Positions 34,136 to 60,276 of a DNA stretch of 64,000 nt are shown piece after piece. The notes beneath the pieces were generated by a model, which searched no databases, was not told where the DNA came from, and was given only the letters and a program-made list of their open reading frames with translations. The DNA is from Liolophura sinensis (Eukaryota; Mollusca; Polyplacophora; Chitonida; Chitonidae), in NCBI RefSeq assembly GCF_032854445.1, contig NC_088306.1:3158373-3222372 (forward strand). The letters are read 5' to 3'. Position 1 is the stretch's first letter. The number at the start of each line of letters is the position of its first letter. The position numbers were made by a program, and so were the translations under genes.

Positions 34136-37100
34136 ATGGAGACAGTACAAGACAAACCGGATGGCTCCATAGATTCGGTACTCTTATTTATTTATTTATC
34201 TAACTTTTAATTGATTTAATATAATATATTCATTTGATTCCTGTTTAACGCCATGCTCAAGAATATTCACTTATATAATGTCAGTCAGCTTTACTGACGG
34301 AGGAAAGCGGAGTATCTGGAGTAAACCACCGACCTTAGACAGGTATTTAACAATTAAACCCGCTGATCAACGACAACATCGAAGCAGTGACATCTGGATT
34401 CTGTCACATGACCTTATTGGTCAAGGATCTAACAGTCGAAACGAGTCACACCTGATCCTCGATAGGCCTGCTGTGTTATTCCAAGTAATTGTTTGACGTT
34501 TAACAATGTACTCATGACTTTTTCACCTACGCTTTACGGCAGTTATTTTTATGGATGGAAGAAATCGGAGTGCTAGGAGTTAATTACAGCCATTTATTTA
34601 TTTATATTGTTACTCGGTAGATAAACAGTGACCCACGGTAAATCCGTTTAAATAAAACAGGAAATATCTAAACTTTCAGAACTCAGCACAGATGATAGGC
34701 CAGGACGCAGTTCATCAATATAGTCAATCAGTTCAAAATGAACTGTTGTGTCAAAGAAGCCAAAACTCTCTGCCACTGGACGACACTGAGGCGGAACAGC
34801 CACCTACTCTCAGGCGCCAGCGTAAACTGGAGACACCGGCTGACTTGGACACCAACAGCCCAAGGCACGTTTGCACGTGCCACGTTGAGCGTGGGCAGCA
34901 AGGTCATTGTTCCCGAGAGAGCATTGAATATCAATTGTTTCGGCAGGATTCGAGATTTGATCTAAACCCGCAACTCGGTGATCACCCCCTCCTTAGGTGC
35001 CACCCTGACCCGTCCCTAGATGGTTCACCTTCCACGGATTCGACAGACACCATCACTGGCCTTGTCCAGAAGTTGAAGGATATGTTGTTTACGAAAGATG
35101 TAAGTATACAACAGAGTGAATTTTTCCAGCGACATGGCGATTCGGCCCAGACTCAAATGTCGATTGTCCTCCAGCACTGTGTTAATAATGCGCTATCAGT
35201 TTGCTCACTGAACGTCATCACAGAGGAGGGACAGATCAACAGATTGAACAGCTAATCACATCAAAGAGAAGGCAACAAAAAATTGTCCTGCTAATTTTAA
35301 ACGTAATCTATATGAAGTTAAGACTTCCAAATGTCTACTGACATGGGTCTACCTTTGAGTGGATATTCGAATGTTCAATTTTATCCGGAGTTTCTCTACG
35401 ACCAACCACTCACTGCAGCCCCGGTATTTAGTATCATGGCCGAAGGTTGACTTTTTGACTGGGCTACCTCCCCTTAGTAGTATTAACGACGGTAAAATTC
35501 AAATATCAGACCTCAACCGCCCTTCCCAACCACAACCGGCAATTTTTCCAAACATATAAGCCTAAGGTGTGTAGTTAAGAGTCAGTGCAACCCATTTTGT
35601 ATTTACCTGAACCAACTCAAAAAATATCCATTTCCTTCGGCAATATGTCACTTTGCGAGTTTTTTTTTTCAGAATGACCTCAGATCACTTGAAAAGTGTG
35701 ACTCCGTCAGACTCGGTGTGCAGAAGTCCACTGGATATGAACCCTTCGGGTGCGACCTCCACAGCTACAAGGACCCCAACAGGAACAGGTGGTTCCATTT
35801 ACTTAAATACCCTGGCATAAACCAAGACAACACAGTGGCAAGAGAACTCGGAATCGAGTAAGTCCATAATAATAAGTCCAGTTACGGTGTTAGAAAAGAC
35901 AGCAGATGGCGTTGTTTCCGTATCCGGACTCTCGTCACTTTGACCTTCTACATGCTGGAGTTCTCTCCCTTTGTCTAGGTCACCCGCTTGGGATTCTGTA
36001 TCTTCAGCTATAAACCATCCGCCCATCCGTTCACACGATTGTTTGTTCCTCTATCCCTCCGTTCATCCATCATCTTTTCCTCTCATCTGTCTTTTCTTCC
36101 GTACCACTAGCTTTCCGTTAATCCATCTGTCTTTCCTTCCATACCACTACCTTTCCGTTCATCCATCTGTCTTTCCTTCCTTACCATTACCTTTCCATTA
36201 ATCCATCCATCTTTTCTTCCGTTCCTCTATCTCTCCTTTCATCCATCCATCTTTTGTTCTGTTTCACTATCTGTCCTTTCATCCATTCATGTTTCCTTCC
36301 GTTCCACTATCTATCCGTTCATCCATCCATCTTTCCTCTCGTTCCACTATCTATCCGTTCATCCACCCATCTTATCTTCAGCTCACCCATCTGCCCTTTA
36401 ATCCATCCATCTTTCCTTCCATTCACCCATCGGTCCTATTATTCCCCCTTCCACCCTGTTCCACATCATTCCATCCATCTACATACTCTTTTCAATTCAT
36501 TTATTCATACATCGACCCGTTCATAGCACATTTATTTATCCATCCGCCTATTTATTCAGTTCTTTATTGTATCGTTAAATTATGCTGTCAATGTGTTAAT
36601 CAGGAAAGGATTGTGTTCACAGAGAGAATGACGAAATCCTGATGATTAACAAGGAGGTTGTCACGCGGGTGAATCAGCAACAGGTGAAAATGAAGATATC
36701 TCGTACGCTGAAGAGCGGCAATGTCACGTTGGTGAGAGAATTTCGTCAGTAAAAACACATTTGTGATGTTTACCAAGAGATATGGCAAATAAAAATGTGC
36801 TTTAAGGAAAATGAGGTGAAATAATAGAAATTAAAATTATCGTAATGACATAAAAACAAGAAAAGTTACATCACATTAAACATTCAAATGTCTTAGAAAG
36901 TGCCGTTGTTCTTGTCTTCTTACGTGTCAGTCAATAATCCGTCGGTTAACTCCTAAGCTTATGTTAAATCAACGAAACATAACATCAATCATTTACCCAT
37001 CGGTTAATCAGTTTTAAACCTCGCAATCTTTTACTTAATCAGGGACTCGTCTTTTATTTTAGTTGCTTCGTCGACTTGTAGAGGGCGAAATGTTCGAATA

Positions 37101-40100
37101 CCTAGAGATCCAAGCTAAAGTAGAAGTCATAGGTAAGGTTTTTAGGTTTGCAGAATTCCGTTTTTTAGTCACAGGAAAGAGGAGTGAGCTTTGACCTTTA
37201 CTATCGAACTTTCAGAGGTGTAGAGATAGGCGCGCCATATTGGTGGAATGCAAGCCCTCTTAAACAAATAGCCGATGGAGAGATAACGGCCACATGAGCA
37301 TGGCAAACCGCTTATTGTGAAACATCAATATGTATCCACCTGAATTGTTTAGAAATTAAAACAGTGTTAACTTGTCCTTCGGTATTACCACCAACAACAC
37401 CACACTGCTGGGGCTATACCATAACGCCGCTACTGAAACTGAGAGCTGAGTGGTTGAAAGGGCCATAAGCGTGTAGCGCTATCAACCACTCCATGAACAC
37501 CCTTTTCCGTTGCCTAAGTACACTAATCAGCTTAGTGCGTTTATTATTCAAAGAAGCCAATGCTAACATTTTGAAAATTAATAGTACCGCTTCCATTTAC
37601 ATGCAGGCCTATGCAGCTTTTAAAATTTACCTTTTATTTTCGTTGTTGTTACAGAGGGGACGATCCGTGCGTCGCGGACAAGTATTGTATATTCAACCGC
37701 TAAAGGAAGCTACCTTGTGTTGCGTAAGGAAGAGGTGGAATCTAAACAGATAAACATCTTCCACAGAGACAATGTTGTTTGCTGGAGTGGAGATGAATTA
37801 GTTACTGAGGTGCGGCCACCCGAAGAATGTGAGTAGGCCTATGTAGAAATCCTTGACACCAATACACGTAAGTAGGGAACCGTAAATGAGACATTATGAA
37901 ACAAATTTTTTTGGAAAAGAAAATAACTGAGATGGTGGGAGAAATGTTTTTTGAAAAAGAAAATCTTTTCTCTGCATGTAACGATTTGTAAAGTTGGGGA
38001 CTTTGACTTAACTGGCCAATCATAAATGAAATAGCGGCACCAGCGGATAGGCTATAAACCCGTCTATGTGTGGAGAGCTACACTCCTGATCGTCATTGCC
38101 GTTATTACTATTTGATTGAAGAATCAAGAATACTCAAGAATATTTCACTTATACGACGGGAGCCAGCATTATAGTGGATGGAAACCGGACAGAGCCCGGG
38201 GGACCATCCGCAACATTTGGGCCTTTGAGCCTTTGGTCCTGACGCACGTATAGCCCGCTTTAGTTCTACTGTGGCTGGATCAAGCACATTTGTATTCGAA
38301 TAATGTCTCACATTTAACTGGTGCAGTTGACACTTACAGAAGTCAAATATTTAAGGCCGGCGCTGCATGCTGTATTCTTTATTTTCTTTTCATTTTGTAC
38401 ATATATGCCTGTTTGAAATCTGTTTATTCAAAACCTGTCTCGATAATGAGCAATGAATTACGCCTAAACAAGTCGGTCTATAGCGGTGTACTATTTTGTT
38501 CTTTTCGCACGGCATTGTTTCTGTATAGACCTAGTTATGCTCGTCAAGCAAAGACGTACAAGTACATGTAGCTCATAATCACTGTAGCGTGGCACCTGAG
38601 AATGTTAGTTCGTTTGTGTTGTACGTCGTTTTTGGAAATTGGCCTTGCCATTATTGACCTGGATCGTCTTTATTGGTTGACGGCTGGTATACGAATGTCT
38701 GTTTTGACACATAGATTTAAACATATTGGAATTGATCTGGGTAGACGATCAGGTCCATTGTAGTCCTTGTCCTTGGTTTGAAATACAAGTTATTTATCTC
38801 ATGGTAAGACCCTAGTCAAATTATGTAGCTAATAGTGAGGGACACTGGCCTATGGCTGCCATACTGGGGTTGTGATGGCAATAGCCTGTGATTTGTTGAT
38901 ACTCTTGGGGCCCTGACTTTCAAAGCTCTTTTTTTCACCATGTAATCTTTTCTCTTCTGAAAAAAAAAATGTTTTTGTCTTCCAAAAAATTGGTTTTCAC
39001 TTGTATGGCTCAACAGTAACAGAAATTCACCTAATATATAGAAAGTGAATAGAAGTCACCCTAATACAGAATTTGAATCAAAAGAAATCAGTATTAAAAT
39101 ATAAAATGTCAATGACTAGAAATCAACCAAATATAGAATGTGAATCAGTAAAAATCAGGCAAGTATAAAAAAGAGAATAAGTAGATATCAGGCAAATATA
39201 GAATGTAACGAACAGAAATCAGCAAAAATATACAATGTGAATTAATAGAAATCAGGCAAATATAAAGAAGAAATCAGCCATATATATGATATCAATCAAT
39301 AAATATCAGCTAAATATAGAATTTGAATCAATAAAAATTGACCAAATGTTGAATTTGAATTAAAAGACATCAGCCATATATAGAATGTGAATCTTGATTA
39401 AAATCAGCTGAATGTAGAATGTGAATAAATAGAAATTAGCTAAATGTAGAATGTGACTAAATAGAAATTAGCTAAATGTAGAATGTGAATAAATAGAAAT
39501 CAGCCAAACATATACAGTGTCTTTCAAGATAGATCATCCTCACATAGAACACCATGAAAATTAGTCCAGTATAAAATGGGATTCAATAAAAATCAGCCAA
39601 ATATGAAATATCAGTAAATAAGAATTTGTCTAATATAAGATGTAAATGAAAAGAAATCCGCCCATCATAAAATGCCATTTAAGAGAGACCAGCCTAACAC
39701 AGAAGACCAATGAATGAAAATAAGCAGTATGTTAGCAGATTGTTGGCCAAGAGAAATCACCCTGATACAGAAGGTCTGTCAATAAAAATCAGCCTAATAT
39801 AAATGTGAATCAACTAACACCAGCCTAATATTGAAGTCTGCCAACAGAGATCTGCACTTATATATCAAATCAGTTTAATCAATTTGTGATTAAAGAAAGT
39901 GCCTTTTCTGTGCCGTTACTCGTTACACATGATTGTGTCTCTATGCGCTTAACCCCGGCTAGGAGCTGTATATTCATCGTATTAAATTAGATCGCCACTC
40001 TGGAGATACGAACAATTGCAATTAAAGCGGAACTGAGATACATATTTTGTTAGCGACAACTGATATTCTAGCATGGTACACTATTTGAATACTGATTCAC

Positions 40101-41503
40101 TCAGTCGCCTAGAACATAACTTGCGTGTTTCCAACATCTTTGAAAACTGTAGACTTCTTTTGTTTGCATGATTCCGTTCTATTTCGTACTTTATATACTT
40201 TCTTAGTTCTTTGAGGGTTTGTATTATACGTCGTTTTGGGAATGGGCCTTTGTGATTATTGACCTGTAGCGTCCGTATTGGTTGACAGCTGGTATACGAA
40301 TGTCTCTTTCAACAGGTGGATTAATACTACACAATTTTACGGAGAAATCCTCCACAAAATCAGTAACAAAATAAATAAATAAATGACATATAGTTTAGTT
40401 TTATAAATTTTGTTACAAAAACTTAAAAGCTGCATGATATGTTTTTTAGATACCTTTGAGCGGTTTATAGTGGAAGCATATCACTTGAGCACTGGCCATA
40501 TTCACTTTTTCTATGTTTTGAAATGTGGAGACAGATACGCGGAATCTGGGGAAAACGGTGTAAAGCTGAAGGTGAGAATTTTCTGTTTATTCATTTATTT
40601 ATGTGACTGAAACAAAGTTCCAAAAGTTTCACTTTCATTTTAACATTTGTTTTATGGTGAGTGAGTATAACTTTTCCATTTCCTGTAATGACGAAATTTG
40701 TACTTTGTACACATTGTCTAATTAAAGTGTGGCTACTTGTGATGGACACAATTCTCCACGAGACCATTAGATCACTATACGCGTATTGTTTCTTCAGTTA
40801 TTAAGGTTGAGACGCGCTTTCTGTTTGAGACCATGCCGGTTTCCGTACATGCGCCTTTTAACATTTTTATCATTTTCTTGTTTTCAGCCTGCCGGAAGTG
40901 GATGGTCTCCGAGAAATGTGGACTCTCGCTTCTTTCGAGTTCATGTAATAGAAACTGGTTCCCCCAGAAAGATTGTACTGGAATGTGCAGAAAAACAAAG
41001 TGAATGACTTGGGTTTATTGTTATTTTTTATTGTAACAACCTATCAGGATTTTGTCTGTCATCCTGAGGCCACAGACCGGTGGTTTTCTCTGGCTCTCTG
41101 ATTTTTTGTCCTTGGTCGCCCTCCTATATGTGAAGCATTCCAGGGTTAAACATCAGGGTATTTGCTGACGTCGTGTTTATCAAAAAAATGTTCGTAAAAG
41201 ACTTCGGCCATTCTTTTTTCTTAATTAGATGGCAATAATAGACAAGTCGTTTCTTCTTCCGTATGCTTAATTGTTTAAACGTCATTTCGGTCTTACTTTC
41301 ACAAGAACCGGTTATTGTCCACTTTATTCCACGATATTATACCATTTTTGGCCTTTCACATTTGCTTATGAATTTTGTTTGTTTTACTTACAGATTATTA
41401 TCTTGCCTGCAAAAACGGAAGGGTAGAATTTATACAGGCCAATCACCCCGCTGACGCGCGTGACTTCACCGTATTGAAAGAGGTTGAAAGAGGTTCACTT
41501 TAA
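34136..41503 (+). CDS. Gene A: PDZ + IL-1-like beta-trefoil protein, 447 aa
   Basis: Spliced CDS: 34136-34177, 34680-35099, 35673-35857, 36623-36731, 37063-37132, 37655-37828, 40450-40571, 40888-40999, 41394-41503. All introns are GT-AG; the sum is 1344 nt in frame with one stop. Residues 1-154 (exons 2-3) are hydrophilic, acidic to mixed, with no signal peptide. About 160-258 is PDZ-like: PFGC as the carboxylate-binding loop, then ENDEILMIN, and VTLLLRRL as the last strand. About 276-447 resembles the IL-1 family: FFYVLKCGDRYAE, SRFFRVHVIETGS, IVLECA, YYLACKNGRVEFIQ, DFTVLKE. Known IL-1 cytokines are leaderless and C-terminal in a precursor; PDZ domains bind protein C-termini. A cytokine or alarmin role is inference. 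FGF-like trefoil is the main alternative, but the C-terminal strand pattern fits IL-1/IL-18 better. Compared with gene B, exon 3 is 67 codons shorter. Confidence 0.88.
36040..36560. repeat. CT-rich (TTCATCCATC) minisatellite, intron 4 of gene A
   Basis: Roughly 40-bp degenerate units of TTCATCCATCCATCTTTCC and TTCC(G)TTCCACTATCT fill most of intron 4. A shorter version lies at 56330-56545 in copy B. Frames of 76-117 aa inside are by-products. Confidence 0.85.
38128..38215 (-). mobile_element. SINE-A fragment in intron 7 of gene A
   Basis: Contains TACTCAAGAATATTTCAC, TACGACGGGAGCCAGCAT and GGAAACCGGACAGAGCCCGG. Absent from intron 7 of copy B. Confidence 0.8.
38588..38715 (+). repeat. R2 repeat fragment
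   Basis: Shares GTACGTCGTTTTTGGAAATT, ATTGGTTGACGGCTGGTATA and CGAATGTCTGTTTTGA with 13860-13980 and 40225-40310. Confidence 0.7.
39000..39880. repeat. ~31-bp minisatellite in intron 7 of gene A
   Basis: Degenerate units of AATATAGAATGTGAATCA and ATAGAAATCAGCC, about 27 copies. The equivalent array in copy B (58030-58375) is shorter, with GACTGTCAGCCAATAGAAAT units. Confidence 0.85.
39905..40310 (+). repeat. Interspersed repeat R2 in intron 7 of gene A
   Basis: Long collinear match to 13540-13990 without the hexanucleotide expansion (GGAGCTGTATATTCATCG, GAACTGAGATACATA, CTGATATTCTAGCATGGTAC). Confidence 0.7.
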
Positions 41504-41959
41504 TCGTGTCGTTGCGTGGGAATGTCATTCAGTTTGGTATTAAGCGAATCAGAATGCATAGTTTTCAACTTCGATGGTATTATCACCGTCAGCAGGGCAA
41601 GGGAGACAACCGTTTGATCCACTTACTGGTGCTACTTTATAGAGGAAGTGACCAAAGTGACTGTTAGACTTTCACGCTTTTTGAGACTGTGCATTTACAT
41701 AAATTTGTTGTGTTCTTTATTGTTTTGTTTTGTTTTTAGGGGTGGGTCACTCTTCCTATGAGTACATGTATAGTTTTACACTTTTTGGCATCGAATTCTT
41801 TTCGATAAACGTTTATGAGGAATGTGTCAAACTTCTTGGGAATATATGCTTGCTTTTCTTCGGACTGTGTTCCGGATGAAGGATGGTGTGCCCCCTAAGT
41901 GGTAGAACAAGCAGGACGTACTTTTTGCATAGCTTCGGTGATTCCCTTATTCCAATGCC

Positions 41960-42100
41960 AACAATTATCCCGAGGACATCACCCAGGAACACGTTTTATT
42001 ACGACTGAAGCGGTACTTACAGGCGTATTTCAGTCAGGAGGACATTACCCAGAAACACGTTTTATTATGACTGAAGCGGTACTTACAGGCGTATTTCCCA
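41960..42100. repeat. 61-bp direct duplication
   Basis: Two units with GGACAT(C/T)ACCCAG, AACACGTTTTATTA and GACTGAAGCGGTACTTACAG, in the putative 3' UTR of gene A. Not seen in copy B. Confidence 0.9.
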
Positions 42101-42191
42101 CCCAGAAGTGTTTATTCTTGACTTGGGCATTTCGTCCAGTTGTTGCCCTTTATAGTCATATGGATCACATATAAAAGACTCCAACATGGAG

Positions 42192-42197
42192 AATAAA
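42192..42197 (+). terminator. Candidate poly(A) signal of gene A
   Basis: First AATAAA after the stop codon, 689 nt downstream. Copy B has its first AATAAA at an equivalent place, 650 nt after its stop, in the same context (AACATGGAGAATAAAACTA). Confidence 0.4.
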
Positions 42198-42208
42198 ACT
42201 AGAGCACC

Positions 42209-42365
42209 GACCACAGTTCGATAGTGGCCAAATGGTCATGCACATGCGACCACAGTTCGATAGTGGCCAAATGGTCATGCACATGCGACCACAGTTCGAT
42301 AGTGGCCAAATGGTCATGCACATGCGACCACAGTTTGATAGTGACCAAATGGTCATGCACATGTT
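42209..42365. repeat. 39-bp satellite downstream of gene A, 4 units
   Basis: Units of GACCACAGTT(C/T)GATAGTG followed by GCCAAATGGTCATGCACATG. The array lies within an R3 element: the left flank has AAAACTAGAGCACCGACC and the right flank CGGCCACTTGTCTATTTTTC, matching R3 ends. Copy B has 9 units at 60943. Confidence 0.95.
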
Positions 42366-43059
42366 ACAGTAACAGAAATACGGCCACTTGTCTATTTTTC
42401 TTATTTAGGGTATTGCCTTAACTGTGCATGTAAATGATCTTCGGCAATTATCTGCCCTTCGGTCAAGCATTTGTCACTTTGTCCATTTAAATAACGAATC
42501 TTCTTTTCAGCTTTAGAAGGTACTCACTATAGAAACCAAAGCAATGTTTTTATTATGAATTACTATTTATTCTGTGCTAATATATTGCCTTGGCTTACCT
42601 GTACATGAGCATTTTCTTATTTTTATACACATATTTGGAGCAGCTAACGTTCTGTTTGCTTTTTTTGTAATTGTTGTGACTTTGTTACATTTTTTGTCGA
42701 TGTTTTTAATGATGGAGATACTTAATAGTTTGCATCTTAGAAAAAGTATTTACAAATAATATCTGTAAATACTTTTGTCGTTCGTTAAGATAATTGCTCA
42801 TGAGTTAATAATATATTCAAGACCAGGGTCCTCATTGAACCTGGAAGTGTAACATGTCACATACTCAGACGAGAAAACAAACAATGGCTTCAGAAAAAAA
42901 AGGACGCGCATGCCAGATTACAAATGTTATTTTCGCAACAGAATAAAAATCTTGCTTTTTACACAACATCTAGTTGGTTGCGTACGAGGTACAAGTGCTA
43001 AAACAGTCGTACATCGGAAAATGGGATGGGTGTATTTTAAATGCTGGGATGGTGAGGTT

Positions 43060-43305
43060 GAGCTCCGTGGCCTAGCGGTTAGCGCCTGAGCGCAGACCAG
43101 TGCCACAGGCGCCTTCATCAATGCGGTCGTTGTGAGTTCAAGCCCAGCTTATGCTTCCTCTCGGTCACAAGTGGGAAATCTGGCAGCAACCCGCGGATGA
43201 TCGTGGGTTTTTCCGTGACAGAAAGCCCGATTTTCTCCTTCCATAATAATGATCGCCGTAGTAAAAGTGAAATGTCCTTGAGCATGGCGTAAAATTCCCA
43301 AGTTA
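43060..43305 (+). mobile_element. SINE-A, near full length, diverged
   Basis: The tRNA-like head GAGCTCCGTGGCCTAGCGGT contains an A-box, followed by the B-box region GTGAGTTCAAGCCCAGC and the body to GAGCATGGCGTAAAATTCC. A similarly placed, badly decayed head (GAGAGCTCAGTGACCC) ends unit B near 63970, so the insertion is older than the duplication. Confidence 0.85.
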
Positions 43306-43689
43306 GGGCAAATCCCTATTTTTGGCGATTATCCTGCCCGCACTGGTTGGGGACGTTGCTGACACACGAGATGCGGGTTCAAAGCCCCAACCGACTGGGA
43401 CCAGCTCAGTATGACCAACGCCGTGTCTTGTACTGGTCACTTTCACTATAGTGTATTTCTTTTACCGGGTCGCCTATATTCAGCTCTCTACAAAATCAGT
43501 CATACTCGCTACCAAAATTGCCTTCAGTCAGTTTACAGACAGCTGAATGTAGGAAACTATCTAAAAGACGATAAATACATAGATGCCAGTTGTTAGATCA
43601 AAGGGTTGTCAGCCTTTGGCCCATGCACCCGCATGCATTCTACTGTCAAAGATGTTTCCTTGAAGAAAGGGGTCTCATCAGTAGGGCGT

Positions 43690-44776
43690 TTATACGTGGA
43701 GACTCACGAGCCTTCTTTATATAACCGACATATTAAGCTCAGCCTTCAATATGCTACAAAGCTCTATAAATGCTAAAAAGCTCATGCTACAAATCTTGCC
43801 TAAGACTGTCTTTTCTATCCATCATATGTAGATAAAATTAACAAATGTTCTAACAAGATCCTTCCGTTTCGTCTTCGTATACGGGACCATATTGTGGAGG
43901 CTTACATCAAGTTACTGATTCGAAAGTCAAAAGATTCGGCGAGGGTTGCGGGTGCTGCTGTTAAAACAGAGAGTCTCTTCTCTTCGTCTTCCTTCCTCAT
44001 CTTCAATCTTCTCAGCCCGAAGCCAGAGCTATACTCCTGGCCTTATCATATGTTTCTTCTGGGCGTGCCCAGAAGGCAATGATATGCAGTGACTCGCCCT
44101 CCTGTCTTTTGGCAATACAGCATAATAAGTTTAAAAATCCTTTTATACTTGAAATATTAACCTTACACAGAAAACTAAAAAATAAATGTTTTCGTCGCCT
44201 TTGGCAGGGTGAATGGGACCTTCAGGTCCATAATAAATTGCACAGTGTTCACCCTGTGATTGGCTTTAGTTTGTATACTCAGGGTATGTCTGGTAGAGAT
44301 CAAGTAGTTTAACGAAGGGTATTGAGCATTCTCTTCTAACTCACATTTTTGTTCTTGATGGGGGTTCTGCCCCAGAGTGTACTGGATGTGGTGCTCTATA
44401 CGTCATCATACATATCCTAGTTGATTGTGTAGACTTTGCCCATGTTCGGCAAAGATTCTACACACTCATATCCTATATCATAAAATATAAATTTTAATTG
44501 TCATAAATTCTTATCAATAAAAAGTTATATACACATAGATTTCATGATATACTATTTTCAAAGTATGCTGGTTTTCGAGTTTTAACTGTTTTACTTTTTT
44601 ATTATCTGATTTAAACATGTCCGAACATTTTTGTTTCCTTTTTGATGTTCTCACTACCATATCGAAAACCTCAATCGCCTCGTTCGAAAATCTCTTTCAC
44701 CTTGTTCTTGTCACGATATGGCTGAAATATTGCCGATGTGATGTTAAGCCAAAATCATTCATTCACTCATTCAACA
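43690..44776 (+). pseudogene. LINE (non-LTR retrotransposon) 3' fragment, broken
   Basis: Decayed reading frames contain motifs of the reverse transcriptase C-terminal region and RNase H domain of Jockey-like LINEs: FRLRIRDHIVEAYIKLLIR at about 43867-43923; CSDSPSCLLAIQ with an RNase H-like SDS(x)SxLxAIQ pattern at about 44085-44120; and RLWQGEWDLQVHNKLH at about 44195-44242. Stops and frameshifts interrupt it. The end reads GATATGGCTGAAATATTGCC, GATGTTAAGCC and an (ATTC)n-like tail at about 44756-44776. It cannot encode an active enzyme. Confidence 0.8.
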
Positions 44777-44789
44777 AAGGCGTATTAAA

Positions 44790-48495: not shown

Positions 48496-48953
48496 CACAC
48501 CCACAGCTGGTGGCGAGTCTCTCGGTTAAGGGGAGATAATCGTTACACGGATATTAAGCAGGCTTGTCAGCTTATGTTTAAAAGAACATTGTGATTGGCT
48601 TGTTAATTAGGGGATAAGTCTCCTAGCTCGGGATAAAGTACTTTGCACCGACTTAGTGAACCAACAGGCATGCTGCATTCTAAATAATGCCAATTCTGAA
48701 TTGATCTGTAACACGAGCAAAGTATTGTGAAATATATTTTTTTCAGTTTTAAGTTTTCTTTTCTTGGCCATTGAAAAAACAGATTTATAGAACTATGTCC
48801 ACGGTTCCGTACTTTACTTTCTAGGGTTCACTCGTTTTATAAACTCACATTGGATGATATTTTGTGCACTAACAGCGTCTATAACATGCCATTTGTCAAT
48901 GTCGCATATTGAGGCAATGCGCATGTACCTCGTTAATATTCATTAGTCCTAAG

Positions 48954-49365: not shown

Positions 49366-49419
49366 GTAATCCATGTAATTGTTCATTTATTTCATTTACT
49401 TATATCTACGTGGTTTCGT

Positions 49420-50755
49420 AACGAGCTCAGTTTTAGGGTTAGGGGAAAACGAATAGCCGGATTACACCACCGGTCATGCACAGGCAAGTAATTGCAGAAT
49501 TATCTCCCTTGATAGAAGTACAGTAAAGTCACTTTAAAATTCCATATAACACTCGTGCATGCTTATATCAAAGCAAATTTTCAACCAGGCCACGTACGGT
49601 TTAATCATGTACTCTTGAAAGCCATTTTTATATACAAATATCTGCCATGACGTCACAAATCAGTTGATAAAATTCTTCCTGGTTGGGCTGCTGTTTTAGG
49701 TCATCAGGTCTACACTCCGAGTTCCTCCGTCTACAAATCTGATAGCCCTTCTGTGTAAGTGAAAGATTCTTCAATACGTTTTTCTTTTGAAAATGTTCGT
49801 ACCATAAATTAGCCTACTAAACGTTTGAGTTTATTAAATTACGTGTTAATGTTAGAAGTGCTTAGAATGAGACGCTTACACTTTCATATAGGCTCGCCAG
49901 CTCTAATAATCCACTAAACTTGTGTTGCACATTCAATGATTCTTTATAAAAATATGTTTTAACAGATTACCTTCGATACTATCAACGTATGAAAATTCTT
50001 GTATGTACTAAGGCTAGCAGATTTACCACAAAGAGAAAGGTTTCCTAGTTTAGTGCCCAAAACGGATGGTCCTGAGAAAACCACACACCACGGGCAAGTA
50101 AATGAAGAACTATTTACCTTGACAAAACACCTTTAAATGTTTAAAATTCCAGTATGTTTAAAACATACGTGGATGCTCAAGTCAAAACAAACTTTCAATT
50201 AACCAGATGTACATCATGCCAATACATGCCCCCCACCCCCCCACCCCCAATGACCGGGCGCACGAGGCCCGGGATAAAACCCGGCTGTGGACAGGGTATT
50301 TGCAGATTCCCGACTCTCTCAGACAATCACTCTGCACAGTCTCACGTTTACTGAAACAGCGCGTGACTCCCGCCAATTTGATGTGCCTATCTGTACGTCA
50401 CATGCACGTGGGAAAGCTGTTCACTATCTTGCACAAAGTCGGTTGTTTTCCACCGCGCTTGAAAAAAGGAAAAACCTTATAAGTAAGTATGTCATTTTCC
50501 CTGCAGGAAGTACTGTTAGTGAAGAATTCCTTTGACATGTTTGACGTTAACTAGCAATCAAGAAAATACAAAATTAAATCGGTTAACATATGTCACCACA
50601 ACAGTTTTTCCTCAGCACACAAGCACGGTAATTTTGTGGACAAGAATAAAAATATACTGGCGAAATTTTGAAAGTATATTCAACTGTGCGAACATAAGCA
50701 GTAATAGTAGCCATATATACGTTGTTATTTTTCACACCGGGAAGTCAGAGATACG
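49420..50755. other. no recognisable gene
   Basis: Unique sequence up to the left boundary of unit B. A C-rich tract (CCCCCCACCCCCC-like) lies near 50230. No exon is supported. Confidence 0.4.
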
Positions 50756-50864
50756 TGTCATTAGTTGAACTTGTCATATACTCCACAACGTCTCTCGTCA
50801 TAGGCCAATGAACTTCCGGCTGTTCTTCGACCGACAAAACTAGGACGATGCATTGAGTTTGGGG

Positions 50865-51001
50865 AGATGTCACGTGACTCGGTTAGCTTGTCACTTTACC
50901 ATATATGGTCATGTCTTCCGGTCGTCTCTCCAGTCCCGGAACAATCGTTTTCTAGGCTGAAATACCCAGATTTATATACATATATATATTTATATATATA
51001 A
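50865..51001 (+). promoter_or_regulatory. Promoter of gene B (E-box, TATA)
   Basis: Collinear with the promoter of gene A: GAGATGTCACGTGACTCG (E-box), CAGTCCCGGAACAA, then an expanded TATA-rich stretch ending TATATATATAAG at about 50991-51002. A CCAATGAA motif upstream (near 50805) is not in copy A. The TATA stretch is longer and less regular than in A. Confidence 0.6.
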
Positions 51002-51027
51002 GCGAGAGACGAGCGGCCCACACACTC

Positions 51028-51111
51028 CATATCGGTTTGTTCTCTCGAAACAGATACTACAATACGAACGTCTCATTGTGACAGACCATTGACACCATCG
51101 CAGTAATCCAG
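51028..51111 (+). other. Non-coding exon 1 of gene B
   Basis: Nearly identical to 31345-31425, including TCTCGAAACAGATACTACAA, and ends at the donor CCAG|GTAAGAAG after 51111. No ATG inside. The conservation of this untranslated exon and the first 100 bp of the intron is higher than in most of intron 1. Confidence 0.65.
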
Positions 51112-51894
51112 GTAAGAAGGTATGACTTTAACGTGATCATGTCACGCGTGACTGGGTGATGTTCACTCAGTGAAAGTAATGCTGAACAATTCAGAATATA
51201 CTGCTGTTAACCTTTGTTACTGTAATTCAACTTTCTCGTAAATTCACAGGATCTTTATGAAAGCATATTCTGAGGGCACTTTTCTGTTTATGTTGATCAG
51301 ATCATGCTTTTTGTGAAGACCTGAAATTGGCCAATCCAACCAATATTGTTTAATTTCAAAAAATAAATTATACAAATGCATAAATCGCCCTGAGAGTTAC
51401 TCTTTCATATAGTCAGCAATTCTTTGATAAAATGCGCGTCTATCTAAAACGAATTTAAGCTTACTGTTGGTAAGAAAACCTCTTTTAGTGATTTTTGATA
51501 AGTGTAGTGGAAGTCAAGACTCAGTGTTACTTAATACATGCTCGTGAAACCGAGTAGACCAGGTCAACACAGGATTTGTAACATGTTTGTTACAAGAGTA
51601 ACAATAACGACCGTAACAGTGTATACTTAGGCACTCCTATCGCTTAGTTGTACGTGACATCCCTAGCAGTTTTGTGCCTTTATTACTGGTAATGGTTCAC
51701 AAAGGGAATGCACATGCACGCTTCTATAGATATATCCAGGATGTGGCAATTAATATTTTAATTTGCACTGTTCATATTTTGCTCTAAATATAGACATACA
51801 ATTTGAAGGTGTGGCGCTCTGGTGTAGTGAGTAAACGTGTAGAACAGAAAGATGCCGAAAGTAGTCGAATCGTTTTCAATTGTAGCACTACTAA

Positions 51895-52250
51895 CCATGT
51901 ATAAAATAGAAGGGCTAGAGGATAGAAAGTAAAGCCAAAGTAACAACGACAGTATGATAAGTGGCAAATGATATCACGTAACTGGTGAAATACCGCCACT
52001 TGTCAATTGACCTCAGTTAAGGTCATACTCTGTTCACATTAGTGCCTGAAAAAAAGCAACGTAAACACCCCCCCCCCCCCCCGCTTCCCACCATCCCCGC
52101 TCTAGCCCCTTGGAGAGTTATTTTAAAAAAAAAAATACAAAAAAAAAATGCAGTGATATTTATAATTGCAATAAATTAGACGTCACTGGTCGAGAATTAC
52201 TCAGTGTCGTCACATTTAATAAACAATCACATGAAGAGCTCTACTGTTCT
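51895..52250 (+). repeat. Interspersed repeat R3 in intron 1 of gene B
   Basis: Matches R3 blocks (AGTAAAGCCAAAGTAACAAC, CACTTGTCAATTGACCTCAG, ATTAGACGTCACTGGTC). A C-tract of about 16 lies at 52066-52081. Orthologous to 32395-32660. Confidence 0.7.
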
Positions 52251-52298
52251 GTGAGTTCTACACAGCACGGGACATCAACTTTCGTTCTGGCCTGTACG

Positions 52299-52367
52299 AG
52301 TGAGTGAGTGAGTGCTTAGCGCTTTGACGTCGTACTTAATTATTCAGTCATATCGGGGACGATCTGA
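52299..52367 (-). mobile_element. SINE-B tail insertion in gene B with 8-bp TSD
   Basis: 69 bp of SINE-B 3' sequence in minus orientation (AGTGAGTGAGTGAGTGCTTA, GACGTCGTACTTAATTATTC), bounded by CCTGTACG at 52291-52298 and 52368-52375. Unit A has the uninterrupted target (GGGCTGTACGCACTGCC), so this copy inserted after the duplication. Confidence 0.92.
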
Positions 52368-52815
52368 CCTGTACGCAATGCCAGCTTCACGCTTGTCTGT
52401 AGTGACCCGCCGTCTGCATCCCTATTGCATATCAGTGCTTCACTGGCGAGAGAACTTTACTCGTTGAGTCAGAAGAATTATGTTCAGTGTATATGGTACA
52501 GACAGTGTAATATAGTTTATGCAGTGTTAGGGCTAAAGTGGTGCAATGGTTGGATTTTTTTATGTATTTACTTCCTTATATACAGCGCCCAACAGGGGGA
52601 AAATGACATACTTACTGATAGGGTTTTTTCCTTTTTTACAACCATGTGATATGGTATGTTATCACGAGGCGCAAACAGCCATATAGCCAGCGGGAAATAC
52701 CGGGACAACCACGTGGCGTATTGTCAAATCGTAGGCGTTCATATTCGCGTATACTCTCTGGGGCAACTGAGTACCTCTCAGTCGCATACATACAGGGAGT
52801 GGCTGGGGAAGAAAG

Positions 52816-52845
52816 ATGTGCATAGCGTGTAATGCCGGGTATTAG
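52816..52845 (+). CDS. Upstream ORF in the leader of gene B
   Basis: Nine codons plus TAG (MCIACNAGY), same length, place and end as the upstream ORF of gene A; exon 2 is taken to start at 52796 after ATACATACAG. A at -3 of this start; the main ATG at 52871 has T at -3. Confidence 0.5.
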   Translation: MCIACNAGY

Positions 52846-52870
52846 GCCTAACAACGGCGTTATCAAGTAG

Positions 52871-55800
52871 ATGGAGACAGTACAAGACAAATTGGATGGT
52901 TCCATAGATTCGGTACTCTCACTTTTTTATCTCTGCATTTATCTCTCTATTTATTTATTTATTGATTTTTTTAATTATTTGATTCCTGTTTAACGCCATG
53001 CTCAAGAATATTCACTTATATAATGTGACTTAGATAATGGTTTACCTGGAGTAAACCACGGACCTTAGACAGGAATTTAACAATTAAACTCGTTGATCTA
53101 CAACAGCATCGAAGCAGCTACATCTGGATTCTGTTACATGACCCTATTGGTCAAGGATCTAACAGTCGAAACGAGTCACACCTGATCCTCGGTAGGCCTG
53201 CTGTGTTAGTGCCACTATTTGGCTGGTGTTTAACTCTGTACTCCGCACCTTTTCACCTACTCTCCTCTGTATTCCGGACCTTTTCAACTACTCTGAAAAA
53301 GTGAATCAGTTAATTTTACCAGAAAGCCTGTTGTCTGAGTGATACCAGAATGCATTGTGTTATAATAACACAGTATTCTGACATATTTAATATAATATCT
53401 TGTTAGTTTAATACAATTATTATGTTGAATTAATAGAATATCTGTGTTGCATTTAAAAGAATAATCTGCTGCAATGACGGAATATACTCTCACATCACTC
53501 AGACAACAGACTTTGACAGATGTATCATTTGGTTTGATTCACGGAATGCCCGGGGTAAAACCACCGCCATTTGTCATGTACCTGTCCCGAGTTAGGACCG
53601 CAGTGGTTGCAAAAATACAACAGAAATGCAAATAAGTTGAACAGTTTCTTTATCAGCAAGGGAGGGATTCTCCGCAGGGTAAGAAATGGATTTTGGAGCT
53701 TGCCTGGTAATTTGCCGTAAACAGGAAATGATGTGACTCGTACCCAATCTTATTTTATTACCACCTGCAGGGAGATGTCAGTTAAATGAAAGTCACCATG
53801 CCACTGTGTTTTGAACATTTCACAAGAGTGAGTTTGTGTTTGGGTTTAACGGCGTACTTAACAATTTTTCAATCATATCACAACGAAGGATTCATTAGTG
53901 TGTAGGTAATGTGCCTCCTTGTTGCAGGACGGATTTCCACCGCTCTTTTATCTAGAGCTGTTCACTGAGGCGATTTACCAAAGGCAAGTAAGCGGCCTAT
54001 ACTAATACCGATCAACCAGTCGCTGCACTATCCCCTTAATGCTGAAGTTACAACTTCCTCTTTTTTAAGGTCTTACGCGTGATCTCCACCGAAGCGGACG
54101 CTCTACCAACTGTACTATTGGGGCCGGTACTATTTACACACGAGATTTTTACGCATACTGAACAGGCCTTTATCAGACCTATGATTAATTTTCCCGTATC
54201 AATCCCATACATAGGTGAAGATCTTTCGTACATGTGTAGAAATACATTGTAACCATGAAAACGTATTTTTATTTGCACCTATATATAAAAGAATTCCACA
54301 TACGTATGTAAAAATATTTTTTCGCACGGTTTAGTAATTGAGACGTAATTGGAGCATTTTAATCCAATTACCGTTCACACAACACAGTTAAATCGGCTCA
54401 AGACCTGAAACTGGCTTCAAGCCACCCCGCTAGCATTGGCAAGTAAACCGGATTAACTGCCACCGCTTTTCCTTCACACGAGCGACATCAAACTGGCCAC
54501 TTTCGGATTTAAACCAGTTTAACTTTGCCCGTATGACCGGGATAATTCGATGATGAAAACTCATTGTGCTGGACACATGTATAGCTGTCACTGCTTTGGT
54601 ACAGGAGATATGCTTTTGGTATTTGGTATATTGCGTAGGTGTGAACATGTTCGTGTATTATGGCATATTTTTAACCCATTTATTTATTTACTTATATTAT
54701 TATTGGACAGATAAAGAGTGACCCGTGATCAATCCATTAATTTAATAAGACCTAAAATATTCAAACTTTCAGAACTCAGCAGCCATGATAGGGATCCAGC
54801 GTCCAACGCCTTACGACATGAACAAAGTGGAGGCGCCGGATCACCGACTCAGCCTAAACATGGCCGCAGTGCACAGGCGTCAGAGAATGTTGAGGAGGAT
54901 AAGCAGCTGTCCTGAAGAAATGCAGTGTCAAAGGAAAATGGATTTCCAGACCTGCGCCAGCACATTCCTGCACAACCATTACGTAGTTCAACGATTTAAA
55001 AGTAAATCACTCCAAAATGCACTGCTGTATCACAGCGCCCTGTCCAGGGAGCAAAGCTCTCTGCCACGTGACCACGCGGAAACGGAGCAGCCAGCAACTC
55101 TCATGCGCCAACCTATACTGGAGACAACGACTGACTTTGACGACACCGACGGCTCAGTGCACGTTCGCAGGCGCCGCGTTGAGCGTCAGATAGGTTGTTG
55201 TCCCCGAAAGAGCATTGAATGGCGATTGTTTCGGCAGGATTCGGGGTTTGATTTAAACCCGGATCTCGACGGTCACCCCCTCCTCAGGTGCCGCTCCGAC
55301 CCGTCCCTAGATTGTTCCCCTTCCGCGGAACCGATAGACTGCATTACCATTGGCCTTGTCCAGAAGTTGAAGGCCATGTTTTTTGGAAAGGACGTAAGTA
55401 TCTTATAGCGTGAATTTTCCCAGCGCAATGGCGATTCGGGTCCAGGCTCAACTGACCAAAGCAAAAAAAGTATACCGCTGTTTTAAACGTCATATACATT
55501 ATTCATTTATTTATTTATTTGATTGGGGTTTTACGCCATACTCAAGAATATTTCACTTATATACACACTGATATCAAAGATGGCTATCAAAACAACTTCG
55601 TCCGGGAGAGTCCGAATTGGAGGCGCTAAGCTGGTCCGCGTTCCCAGTATGTCCATCGATGACGTCATTTCCGAATATCCCCAACCAGTGATGGGAAATA
55701 TGCATAAAATAATGAAGTTCTTAAGAAATCTAAAATATGATATTCAAACCTGTTAAAGATATGTATAGCCATCGTATATAACCTACACTCAGCGTAGGTG

Positions 55801-58800
55801 ATAACTCTGATGAGAAGGTTCTACAATATCAAAGATTTAGATCCGACATTTAAATGTCCATTTGTCTTGCAAACTTCAGACATTTACATTGGGCCAGTTG
55901 AACATTTTATCTATACTCATCTATGTTAAGTAAACTGCGTTTTGTCTTTCAGGATGACCTCAGATCACTTGAAAAGTGTAACCCCATCAGATTGCATATG
56001 CAGAACTTCACCGGTTATGAACCCTTCGGGTGCGACCTCCACAGTTATCATCATCCCGACAAAAACAGATGGTTCCACTTCCTTAGATACAATGTCATCA
56101 ACCCAGACGACACAGCGGCAAGGCAACTCGGAATTGAGTAAGTCCTTGATAGTAGTCAAAGCAAACAACGATTGAAAATGTTATGCAAGTCCGAAGGCGG
56201 TATTAGACAAGATAGCAGATAGCGCTGTTGTCGGATATGGACAGCCATCACTTGGACCGTCTAGATGCTGGAGTTGTCTCCTTTCCTTCAGGCCATCTGC
56301 ACAGGCTTCTGTAACGTTACCAATAAACCATCCGCCCATACGTTTGTACGTTCCTCCATTCACCCCTTCCTCTGTTCATCCACCAACACTATATGTATGT
56401 CCATCCTTCATTCCTTCCGTTCAACTATCTGCTTGTCTATCCATCCATCTTTCTGTTCAACGGCCCACAATTTCATCGTCCCACTTTTAAATTCCTTTCA
56501 TTGCAAACTTATTTATCCATCCGTTTTCTTAGTCAGTCTTCCATCCGATTGTCTGATAACCTATCGTTATACGATGCGTTAATCAGGAAAGAATTGTGTT
56601 CACAGAGAGAATGACGAAATCCTGATGATTAACAACGAGGCTGTCACGCGGGTGAACCAACGACAGGTGGAAATGAAGATATCTCGTACGCTGAACAGCG
56701 GCAATGTCACGTTGGTAGGAGAATTTCGTCATTAAAAACACAATTGTGACTCATACCAATAAAAATAACAAATAGAAATCCTTGTGATTATTTATAAGGA
56801 CCATGGAATGGATTGGAACAACTAATATTGTCCACGTAACTGAAAAAACAAGAAACGTTATTTCATTTTAACTACAATATCCAGCTGTTCTTGTCTCTTT
56901 ACAGGTAACTTTCAATCTGTCCGGCAGTAACTCGTCTGTCAACCAATGACGTTGTTTTAAATTAACGAAACACAACATCCCTCATGTATCCACTAATTAA
57001 TGAACCAATCAGCTTTTAAAATTTACAATGTTTTACTTCATCACTGAATCCTTGTCTTTTACTTTAGTTACTTCGTCGACTTGTACAGGATGACAAGTTC
57101 GAATACCTAGAGATCCAAGCTGAAGTAGAAGTTACAGGTAAAGTACGGTTAGGTTTCGGAGAATGCTCATTTATTTATTCAGTTTTTGACTTATGTGATG
57201 GTGGTCAATATTTTGAGGCCAAGAAAGAAACCGAAGTCACCTTTGGCAAGTTACTAACGGACTTTCAGACGTGCACAGATGTGCACCCCATAGAGGAGGG
57301 ACGCAATCCTTCTTATAGACTATTGAAAATGAACATGGTCAGCCGCTTGTTGTCACACTTAAATAAGAATTCACCTGTGTATAGCTTTGGAAGTTTGAAT
57401 GTGTTAACTGTTCCTACCGTATTACCACCCAAAACAACATGTAGGGTTATAGCTTAAACGCGCTTCGGAACGGATGCAAGTGCCATAAACGCCTAGCGCT
57501 TCCTACCACTAAACACATTTATCGTTGCCCAAGTACACTAATCAATTCAGTACGTTTATTATTTGAAGAACGAAATGTGAATACTTTGTAATTTTAGCGT
57601 TATCGCTTCCATCTGCATGTATAGATCTTTTTAATGTTACCTTGTATTTTGATTGTTGTTGTTGCAGAGGAGTTGATCCGTGTGTCTCGGACACGAAGTA
57701 TTGTATATGCCCAAGCCAGAGGGCGCTACATTGTTTTGCCTGACCAAACCGTGCAATGTAAACGGGTAAACATCTTCCACAGAGATGATGTTGTTTGCTG
57801 CAGTGGGGAAAGATTAGTTACTGAGGCGCGGCCACACGGAGAACGTGAGTATATAGAAATCCTTAATTCCAACACAGAAATGTCAGTGAGTCTAACGTTA
57901 AGCATAACGTGGAACAAAATATATCTCCCTAACCGAGTATGTGGAAGAAACGACATCAATGAAACACTACTTGTCATTCAATGTACCGTGTAGTTCGATA
58001 CAAAGCATTGCAATTTAGCGGGCAAGATCAGCCTAATATGTACACAATGTCAGACCAAAAAAATCAGTTTGACACAATCGATGTTAACTTTGAATCGATA
58101 TAAATCAACCTTATATAGAATATGAAAAAAAATCGGCTTAGTATAGACTGTCAGCCAATAGAAATCAGCCTAATATAGACTGTCAGCCGATAGAAATCAG
58201 CCTAATATAGACTGTCAGCCAATAGAAATCAGTCTAATATCGAATGTCAGCAAATAGAAGTCACTTTAATATAGAATGTGAATTGACACGTATCGGCTTA
58301 ATATACGTCAGCCCACAGGAGTCAGCCTAATGTACAGTATCAACAAATAGAAATTAGTACAAGAGAAATCAGCCATTTGTAATGATGCCAGAAATCACCT
58401 TTCCTGTGCCGATGCACATAAATATCCTAGTGACATTAATACAACACAATATTACGGGACACTAAAATGTAACAGTCTTCCACATAATCAGTGACAACGT
58501 AAGTAAATAAATGACATATATTCCAGTTTTATACATATTGCTATAAAACTTTGAAAGCTACCTTGAAACGGTTTTCAGGCACTTTTGAGCGGTTTACCGT
58601 GAGTGCATGGGACACGATAGAAAACAAGGTTGCCTTCTTCTATGTTTTGAAATGTGGAGACAAATACGCGGAAGCTGGAAACAACTGTGTAATATTGAAG
58701 GTAAGAACTTTTTTTTTTATTTATTTATGTATTTTAATTTATACTTCGTGTCCTTTGGTCTCGTCGTCTGCACCACGGCTCGCGCTTTTTATGCCACCGA

Positions 58801-60276
58801 AAGAACGTTCACTTTTCATTTTCATGGTTGTTTTATTTTAATGATTATGCCTCAGCAGTTTCCTGACCGCTTCCGTGGCCTATTGGTTACAGCGTTGCCC
58901 TTGAAGTCGGGGGAACCGGGATCAAAGCAAATTCGGTCATAGCAAAGACCTTAAAAATGCTTCGTGTTGCTACCTCGCTTGGCGCTCAACACTGAGAGGT
59001 TAGAGCACGGAAACATGACTGGTCGACCCGCTGTCAGTATAATGTGACTGGGTGTGGTATAAGGTGTCGTATTTCCGGCCCGATACTTCAGTGGCGGCAG
59101 CACTTTGGTGACATGGACTCACCCTGCCACAAGAAGATACAGTATATGTACACACATCTAATGACTCCTCGTCGTCATATCACTGATGAATTGTTAAGTA
59201 CGACGTTAAACCCCAGGTATTCATTCATTCGTTCATTCGTAAGGACGAATTTGTGATCGACATTATTCTCCTTCAGACCATTAAATCAACGTATGTGTGT
59301 TGTTTCGTCGGTTATTAAGATGTAGACACGATTTTCTGTTTGTAACCATGCCGGTTGCTGTATACATTTTGATCATTTTCTTGCTCACAGCCTGCAGGAA
59401 ATGGCTGGACTCCTGAGCGTCGCCTTCCAAAACAATTCAACTCTCGCTTCTTTCGAGTTCATTCAACAGGAATTGGTCCCTCAAGAAAGATTTTCTTGGA
59501 ATGTGCAGACACAGACCGACAAAGTAAATGATTTGGGTTTTGTATTATTGTAAGAATATCTCTCTGGTCGTTCTATGGAAAGGATTTTGTCTGCCACACG
59601 CATGTAAATGTTCGTGAGGAATTTGTCACAGACCGGTGGTTTTCTTCCGACTTCCCGGTTCCCTCTCGTCGTATATGTGAAGCATTCCTCAGAACAGCGC
59701 TAAACACCATGAAGGCCAAAAAAATAAATCATATCTAACAGTACGACGGCTTATCAGTGTCTTTGTGTAAGTTGTATATGTGTCGTTTTATAAAAAAAAA
59801 TATTCGGAAAAGAATTCTTAAAAGATTTCGGCCAGTCTTTTTTTTAATTAGATGATAATATTAGAAATGTAATTTCATGTGTTTAATTGTTCGACTGTGA
59901 TTTAGTTTTTGCTTAAATATAGTTCGGTGATCTAAGGACAATGTTTACATATTACCGGAACTGTCGACCTATTCAAAGTGCTGCATCACTAAAACATTAT
60001 TTTGGTCATCTGACGACGATGCCATCTTATTAGCGGACCGGTTGACATTTTCAAAGTGCTGCATGCCAGTTCTGAAGTGCATATGGAGTGGTTCTTGTCC
60101 ACTTAGTGCCACTAACTCATATTATTTTGGGTATTTTACGTATTTAATGAATTTTATTTGTTTGACTTACAGATTATTATGTTGCCTGCAAAAATGGAAA
60201 AGTGGAATTGATACAAACCGAGAACCCCATGACAATTCGTCAGTGGACAGCGTTGAAAGAAGAGACTGTCCGTTAA
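52871..60276 (+). CDS. Gene B: PDZ + IL-1-like beta-trefoil protein, 520 aa
   Basis: Spliced CDS: 52871-52912, 54773-55393, 55953-56137, 56606-56714, 57068-57137, 57668-57844, 58579-58700, 59391-59523, 60173-60276. All GT-AG, phases as in gene A, 1563 nt with one stop. Residues 1-221 are the N-terminal region, without a signal peptide and 67 codons longer in exon 3 than gene A; it carries a basic cluster VRRRRVER. About 227-325 is PDZ-like (PFGC loop, ENDEILMINNEAV, VTLLLRRL). About 343-520 resembles the IL-1 family: FFYVLKCGDKYAE, SRFFRVHSTGIG, IFLECA, YYVACKNGKVELIQ, WTALKE. Exon 9 has seven extra codons (RRLPKQF region) and exon 7 one extra. The exon 5 donor (TTG|GTAGGA) is weaker than in A. 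Leaderless secretion and cytokine action are inferred from the family only. Confidence 0.88.
53827..54126 (-). mobile_element. SINE-B copy in intron 2 of gene B
   Basis: Close relative of 29605-29965: GAGTGAGTTTGTGTTTGGGT at the tail end, ATGTGCCTCCTTGTTGCAGG in the body, and GGACGCTCTACCAACTGTAC at the inverted tRNA-like head. Absent from intron 2 of gene A. Confidence 0.85.
55503..55562 (-). mobile_element. Short SINE-A fragment in intron 3 of gene B
   Basis: An ATTT tail plus TTTTACGCCATACTCAAGAA and TATTTCACTTAT. Flanking ATATACA on both sides may be a short target-site duplication. Not in copy A. Confidence 0.75.
56330..56545. repeat. CT-rich minisatellite, intron 4 of gene B
   Basis: Shorter, more decayed counterpart of 36040-36560 (CTATCCATCCATCTTTCTG, TTATCCATCCG). 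Confidence 0.75.
58030..58375. repeat. ~31-bp minisatellite in intron 7 of gene B
   Basis: Degenerate units CAGCCTAATATAGACTGTCA and GCCAATAGAAAT, about 11 copies, against about 27 in gene A. Confidence 0.8.
58868..59243 (+). mobile_element. SINE-B copy in intron 8 of gene B
   Basis: The left part has a tRNA-like head (TCCGTGGCCTATTGGTTACA). The body, CGATACTTCAGTGGCGG, is the inverse of the 21775/29345 type. The end reads AAGTACGACGTTAAACCCC with an ATTCATTCATTCG tail. Intron 8 of gene A is 316 bp without it, so it was inserted after the duplication or lost from A. Confidence 0.85.

Follow-up and report, generated by a model that had tools for sequence, protein, structure and literature searches.

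A tandem pair of genes on the forward strand of a 64,000-nucleotide stretch of the genome of the chiton Liolophura sinensis (the window; contig NC_088306.1, positions 3,158,373 to 3,222,372) codes for two related proteins, each with a PDZ domain followed by a C-terminal domain that leans toward the interleukin-1 (IL-1) family. IL-1 is a messenger of inflammation. Gene A (34136-41503, 447 amino acids) begins with the ATG at 34136 and gene B (52871-60276, 520 amino acids) ends with the stop codon at 60276, which are exactly the outer limits drawn in an earlier reading of the window, here called the original prediction.

Structure and duplication of the two genes

Both genes are predicted to have nine coding exons, and the models were built by hand from the genomic sequence, using frame-by-frame comparison of the two copies and canonical splice sites. 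All 16 introns of the two genes together have GT-AG ends, partly by choice because the models were built looking for them. What was not chosen is that a single set of sites leaves the frame open across nine exons in both A and B, with identical intron phases (0, 0, 2, 0, 1, 1, 0, 1), and the tandem nine-exon pair with shared phases thus stands as originally proposed.

Coding exon 1 of gene A (34136..34177; METVQDKPDGSIDS) starts with the ATG, ends at a donor GT, and is alike in copy B, and exon 2 (34680..35099; phase 0 in and out) codes for an N-terminal region upstream of the PDZ domain with no recognized domain. The PDZ domain is split between exon 3 (35673..35857; phase 0 in, 2 out), which holds its first half with sub-threshold matches to Pfam PDZ_6/PDZ, exon 4 (36623..36731; phase 2 in, 0 out), which holds its second half (ENDEILMIN...), and exon 5 (37063..37132; phase 0 in, 1 out), which holds its end and a linker. 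The linker continues in exon 6 (37655..37828; 174 nucleotides, phase 1 in and out), where the IL-1-like domain and its profile alignment start; the middle of that domain is in exon 7 (40450..40571; 122 nucleotides, phase 1 in, 0 out), and the best stretch for the Pfam IL1 model spans exon 8 (40888..40999; RFFRVHV...LECAEKQ, phase 0 in, 1 out) and exon 9 (41394..41503; NYYLACKNGRVEFIQ...DFTVLKEVERGSL, then the stop codon).

Gene B follows the same plan, with exon 1 from its ATG (52871..52912), an N-terminal exon 2 of 621 nucleotides (54773..55393), the two PDZ halves in exons 3 (55953..56137) and 4 (56606..56714), the PDZ end and linker in exon 5 (57068..57137), linker and start of the IL-1-like domain in exon 6 (57668..57844; 177 nucleotides), the middle of the domain in exon 7 (58579..58700; 122 nucleotides), and exons 8 (59391..59523) and 9 (60173..60276, including the stop codon). 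Exon 2 of gene B is longer than that of gene A by 201 nucleotides. An in-frame stop lies immediately 5' of the gene B ATG, whereas gene A has no such stop, and its start is less certain because 42 codons ahead of the ATG can also be read in frame, a methionine among them.

No signal peptide or transmembrane helix is evident by hydropathy in either protein (highest 19-residue mean, 0.93 in A and 1.01 in B), and the leaderless character claimed from the outset is supported in this way for both proteins and by the upstream stop for B only. The PDZ domain is real: tested as an isolated region against Pfam PDZ (cut-off, 23.2 bits), gene B scores 24.3 bits, over the cut-off, and gene A scores 18.5 bits, under it, and in both full-length proteins PDZ models appear below the cut-off. 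The acceptor of exon 4 was picked to keep the frame open, and the splice gives LGIEENDEILMIN, which we take to be the usual PDZ core.

The two proteins align over 444 residues and agree at 289 of them, and the ratio of nonsynonymous to synonymous divergence (dN/dS, Nei-Gojobori) is 0.69 overall, with 0.64 for the N-terminal, 0.50 for the PDZ, and 0.85 for the C-terminal part, at a synonymous divergence (dS) of 0.33. Either selection constrains the proteins modestly or change is rapid in the C-terminal part. A chain of blastn matches, about 68 to 97% alike with gaps between, pairs segment 31100..42808 (copy A) with 50751..62076 (copy B), both on the forward strand, and the duplication therefore extends past the gene limits on both copies. 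No convincing further copies exist in the genome by protein searches: all 16 exon matches at E<=1 fall in genes A and B, as do 10 of the 11 matches at E<=10 to the C-terminal part of gene A, the eleventh having an E value of 2.4.

Directly downstream of both genes are arrays of repeats with units of about 39 nucleotides (42105-42636 and 60839-61562), which are 93 to 97% alike, far more so than the gene parts (about 68 to 77%). Upstream of both genes, 31100-31718 and 50751-51404 are 86% identical, which also exceeds the aligned gene parts; this stretch may be a shared control region, a 5' exon, or a gene conversion tract. Ten other open reading frames of the window were scanned with Pfam and gave two matches, both sub-threshold, to HROB (13052-13501, reverse strand, E 0.0015) and to FAM216B (11543-11845, reverse strand, E 0.0016).

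The window sits on contig C12 of the genome searched (632 contigs, 609,464,459 bases in all). The genes of the mitochondrial contig, read with the invertebrate code, are ordered in two blocks, as is common in chitons and certain other molluscs. A 609.5-Mb, 632-scaffold chiton assembly was first published as Liolophura japonica (PMC11068029, in its available text), and the name was corrected to L. sinensis (PMC12441733). The invertebrate host named in the original prediction is thus correct, and a vertebrate or contaminant origin is rejected, the genome being a chiton assembly whose mitochondrial contig has the two-block gene order of chitons. On contig C99, COX1 is matched seven times at intervals of about 15.5 kb, alongside the 15.2-kb contig C632, and C99 is probably an assembly product in which the mitochondrial genome is repeated head to tail.

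Resemblance of the C-terminal domain to the IL-1 family

The C-terminal motifs on which the IL-1 assignment was first based are present in both spliced proteins, as LECAEKQNYYLACKNGRVEFIQ in A and LECADTDRQNYYVACKNGKVELIQ in B. For the comparisons below, the IL-1 family, FGF, and IL1RAPL1 sequences are reference copies not drawn from a database, and FGF is the one rival trefoil in the profile comparison. Aligned with hhalign, the A/B pair scores 29.5 against nine IL-1 family proteins and 32.6 against 13 (123 columns, E 1.4e-4, hhalign probability 52%), the latter above all of 1000 column shuffles (mean 12.5, maximum 25.7). The same pair scores 14.3 against six FGFs, which is within the null (mean 13.1, standard deviation 2.5). 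As benchmarks in the same test, IL-33 scores 23.7 against the rest of the IL-1 family, which the pair exceeds, IL-18 scores 49.0, and FGFs score 21.5 against IL-1s; as negative controls, the reversed pair (13.5), the N-terminal part (11.0), and the PDZ part (10.2) were compared with the IL-1 profile. Gene A alone also separates the two families (27.1 for IL-1, 11.4 for FGF). By profile comparison, the C-terminal domain of the pair thus leans to IL-1 over FGF, and an FGF reading is disfavored, yet FGF2 shares a weak Pfam match with gene A.

Six more IL-1 profile compositions were run after the nine- and 13-sequence ones, and all are reported here. The pair scores 31.9 against IL-18 plus IL-33 and 25.7 against all members but IL-33 (0 of 500 shuffles as high in each case), and a weak 18.0 against all but IL-18 (12 of 500); the other three, against IL-18 alone, IL-33 alone, and the classic IL-1/36/37/38 set, are given below with the contrary evidence. 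IL-33 itself is at background against IL-18 (13.7), and small profiles are therefore insensitive; against the classic set, IL-33 scores 22.0 and IL-18 44.0. The support for IL-1 comes from IL-18/IL-33-like features, mainly in the last third of the domain (RFFRV...LECA...YYLACKNGRVEFIQ...FTVLKE).

A Pfam scan of exons 5-9 finds IL1 (PF00340) as the sole family for gene A (E 0.0088, 16.1 bits), and a slightly shortened domain still matches (E 0.0096); the scan of gene B exons 5-9 gives no family match. No FGF, fascin, or lectin family is reported by Pfam for the C-terminal domain of either protein. With a model built from nine IL-1 family sequences, gene A scores 8.7 bits, above all 11,000 decoys given (7,390 reported; best, 6.6), and with an FGF model neither A nor B is above chance. 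Human IL-33 has no PF00340 match at E<=1 and FGF2 does have one, and a sub-threshold score therefore neither excludes nor proves membership of the IL-1 family. Because FGF2 shares the match, that of gene A suggests a trefoil, not IL-1 in particular. FGF2 also matches Pfam fascin.

Several results weigh against the IL-1 assignment. The 16.1 bits of gene A are below the PF00340 cut-off of 25, gene B does not match, the match is gone when A is trimmed to 142 amino acids and is unreported for full-length A, and FGF2 (positions 64-103) scores higher than A on the same part of the model (21.3 bits, also sub-threshold). Gene B alone shows no preference by hhalign (18.9 for IL-1, 18.6 for FGF) and has 1.8 bits on the IL-1 model, where 114 decoys are equal or higher. 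The pair is at background against the classic IL-1/36/37/38 set (14.6, a score reached by 107 of 500 shuffles) and against IL-33 alone (13.3, 132 of 500), and weak against IL-18 alone (17.3, 19 of 500). PDB sequence searches with phmmer and with a two-sequence profile return no IL-1, only PDZ or chance matches or none. The PROSITE-type IL-1 signature is unmatched: around LECA, A agrees at 5 of 9 positions, a count that chance placement elsewhere in protein A reaches as well, and B is interrupted there by two extra residues; human IL-33 agrees at 5 of 9 and IL-18 at 6 of 9. The FES-PG-WF motif, called universal among IL-1 ligands in the available text of PMC12108812, is only partial in the chiton proteins (LEC...YYL, with PG absent). 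The C-terminal dN/dS is weak evidence of constraint. Of the proposed IL-1-like domain, then, the lean of the pair's profile to IL-1 over FGF and the IL-1β-like intron phases (see below) hold, and the Pfam support stays sub-threshold and confined to gene A, with B indifferent between families and the classic members at background; the proposed check by Pfam profiles bears out PDZ, over the cut-off in B, with IL1 sub-threshold in A and absent in B and no match to FGF.

Intron phases, known relatives, and candidate receptors

In IL-1β genes the phases of the coding introns run II, 0, I, I, 0, ending in 1, 1, 0, according to a paper on turtle IL-1β, which assigns the twelve strands to the final three exons and, in its Figure 3 legend, to the final four (PMC4880838). 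Chiton introns 3-7 have phases 2, 0, 1, 1, 0, which is the published series, and the 1, 0 pair lies inside the IL-1-like domain; the matched series is preceded by two phase-0 introns and followed by one more intron, of phase 1. This match supports the IL-1 reading independently of the profile evidence. The relevant human IL1B exons are presumably 171 and 131 nucleotides, and the chiton counterparts (174/177 and 122 nucleotides) are similar only if those sizes hold. On the same presumed sizes, hhalign and a joint MAFFT alignment agree in putting the phase-0 intron at matching residues (LQLE/S versus VKLK/P, the slash marking the intron), and the phase-1 intron is at most 3 residues off in hhalign and about a dozen off in MAFFT. 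A simulation gives 0.01 for the phase-0 coincidence and 0.0003 for both, the latter valid for the hhalign alignment only.

The chiton proteins are not the first of their architecture, contrary to the original prediction, which knew of no PDZ/IL-1 fusion. Fish nIL-1F (nIL-1Fm) has IL-1 family and PDZ domains in one protein, of 352 amino acids in lumpfish, and is known from lumpfish, trout, and grass carp, and also from elephant shark and coelacanth (PMC7144542). nIL-1Fm has no signal peptide; in trout, genes induced by IL-1β are inhibited by its last 169 amino acids, and receptor competition is reported for grass carp (PMC4929537). Like nIL-1F, the chiton proteins are leaderless, join an IL-1-like domain to a PDZ domain within a few hundred residues, and come from multi-exon genes; unlike them, nIL-1F has seven coding exons rather than nine, a vertebrate host, and reported activity as an IL-1β antagonist, and the two are likened here by architecture. 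The PDZ-IL-1 type is thus already known from fish, and the remarkable part is its occurrence in a mollusc.

With vertebrate IL-1β, the chiton pair shares the phases of introns 3-7, the position of the (in the chiton, putative) trefoil in the last exons, and a leaderless precursor, but it has three further coding introns, two before the shared series and one of phase 1 after it, and its similarity to the classic IL-1 subset is at background. A PDZ domain is not known from IL-1β, IL-18, or IL-33. The best sequence resemblance of the pair is to IL-18 and IL-33, in a LECA/FECK/FESS strand and a YFLACE-like strand, although taken singly IL-33 is at background and IL-18 is weak. FGFs belong to the beta-trefoil fold class, and FGF2 and gene A match the same part of the Pfam IL1 model; they differ in that the pair's FGF profile score is at the null and Pfam finds no FGF match.

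Reviews know of no gene for an IL-1 ligand beyond the vertebrates (PMC9020223, PMC9382457), while invertebrates do have IL-1R-like receptors, and the receptors are therefore thought to be older than the ligands (PMC9020223). The words invertebrate and PDZ are absent from the main text of a paper on the origins of the IL-1 superfamily (PMC5861070), and a literature search on invertebrate IL-1 or PDZ/IL-1, with most subscription papers and preprints outside it, found no invertebrate IL-1 ligand among the titles and starts of abstracts listed.

The genome has at least 103 TIR matches, of which 71 lie in open frames of at least 500 amino acids, as in Toll-like receptors, and an IL1RAPL1 TIR query gives 45 weak matches (best, 2e-6). 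For one TIR exon the closest PDB matches are the TIR domains of IL-1RAcP (E 6.7e-5) and IL1RAPL1 (E 3e-4); the exon taken to precede it has a membrane helix, judged by eye, and a sub-threshold EGF match (18.0 versus 21.5 bits), and is not an immunoglobulin (Ig) exon. A receptor of the Ig-TIR type was not found, which may also count against an IL-1 system, in four TIR loci (some 6 kb apiece) inspected visually and by a crude search for motifs, where no Ig exon was seen. The exons just described lie on contig C7, at about 35.028-35.035 Mb (L059 8711-9604; L058 3408-3596 and 5614-5898), where the exon with the membrane helix is cysteine-rich and weakly EGF-like and is followed by TIR exons, the IL-1R-like one first, and from exon adjacency this is perhaps a candidate receptor gene with EGF, transmembrane, and TIR parts.

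Origin of the pair and competing explanations

Taken together, the chiton tandem pair probably codes for leaderless PDZ plus IL-1 superfamily precursors, invertebrate relatives of fish nIL-1F with an ancestor shared with the vertebrate IL-1 genes. A PDZ domain and an IL-1-like domain in one leaderless protein, in a chiton and in fishes, together with IL-1-type intron phases, are hard to explain except by descent, and judged from sequence the IL-1 family is most likely to be placed before the protostome-deuterostome split. Such a precursor would be made in the cytosol, where its PDZ domain would hold the protein at the C-terminal tail of a partner. Damage or infection would lead to its release by a route that needs no signal peptide, perhaps once cleavage of the exon 5-6 linker has parted the trefoil from the PDZ domain, and the putative trefoil would act on a cell-surface TIR-signaling receptor, as an agonist or, as in fish nIL-1F, an antagonist; two copies would permit both. 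The genes, their splice phases, the PDZ domain, the lack of an evident signal peptide, and the IL-1-leaning profile match are observed; we infer the fold, the release, the cutting, the receptor, and the activity alike.

The proteins could instead have an IL-1-type trefoil by descent and yet be intracellular PDZ adaptors, the extracellular role of IL-1 having arisen later in vertebrates. PDZ domains are typical of intracellular scaffolds, and the lack of an evident signal peptide, the PDZ part being the most constrained (dN/dS 0.50 versus 0.85 for the C-terminal part), and the absence of an Ig-TIR receptor from a limited look all suit an adaptor. However, leaderless export is normal for IL-1 proteins, fast C-terminal change suits an exposed immune ligand, and nIL-1F of fish, which shares the architecture, reportedly acts on IL-1 signaling as a recombinant protein, and we regard a purely intracellular role as rather unlikely.

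Somewhat less probable still, and in our view decidedly unlikely, is that the C-terminal part folds as a beta-trefoil of some other kind (FGF, fascin, or lectin type) or as another beta-rich domain whose IL-1 likeness is convergent or at the level of the fold. The behavior of FGF2, which matches the same region of PF00340 as gene A, weakens the Pfam evidence, lowers confidence in the IL-1 reading, and raises this alternative, which also draws on the sub-threshold PF00340 match itself, the background score against classic IL-1s, the incomplete signature, and the lack of an IL-1 preference over FGF in gene B alone. The pair's FGF score at the null (14.3, mean 13.1) and the lack of any reported FGF, fascin, or lectin family count the other way, as do the PDZ partner and the intron phase series common to the chiton pair and IL-1 genes.

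An artefact of gene models or assembly, or a pair of decayed copies, would fit hand-built models made from genomic sequence alone and a dN/dS of 0.69 that is not low, but is very improbable given 18 coding exons with no internal stop, identical phases in two copies, and a synonymous divergence of 0.33. Horizontal transfer from fish to the chiton lineage, rather than common descent, would accommodate the view of reviews, in their available text, that IL-1 ligands are absent outside vertebrates, and is equally hard to credit, since phase-conserved introns and very low similarity to vertebrate IL-1 are ill-suited to a recent transfer.

If the pair are indeed IL-1 superfamily precursors, a tentative and rather doubtful extension is that IL-1 ligands arose as PDZ-trefoil proteins before the protostome-deuterostome split, that chitons and nIL-1F keep this form, and that the IL-1β pro-domain is a PDZ remnant. 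The pro-domain may be a degraded PDZ because the chiton introns in the PDZ and linker (2, 0, 1) match the phases of the introns of the IL-1β pro-domain in the same order. If true, the pair would thus hint at the origin of the IL-1 pro-domain, and old reports of invertebrate IL-1-like activity could be tested with a real gene. The IL-1 ligand would predate the divergence of protostomes and deuterostomes, and the history of these cytokines may reach back much further than has been assumed.

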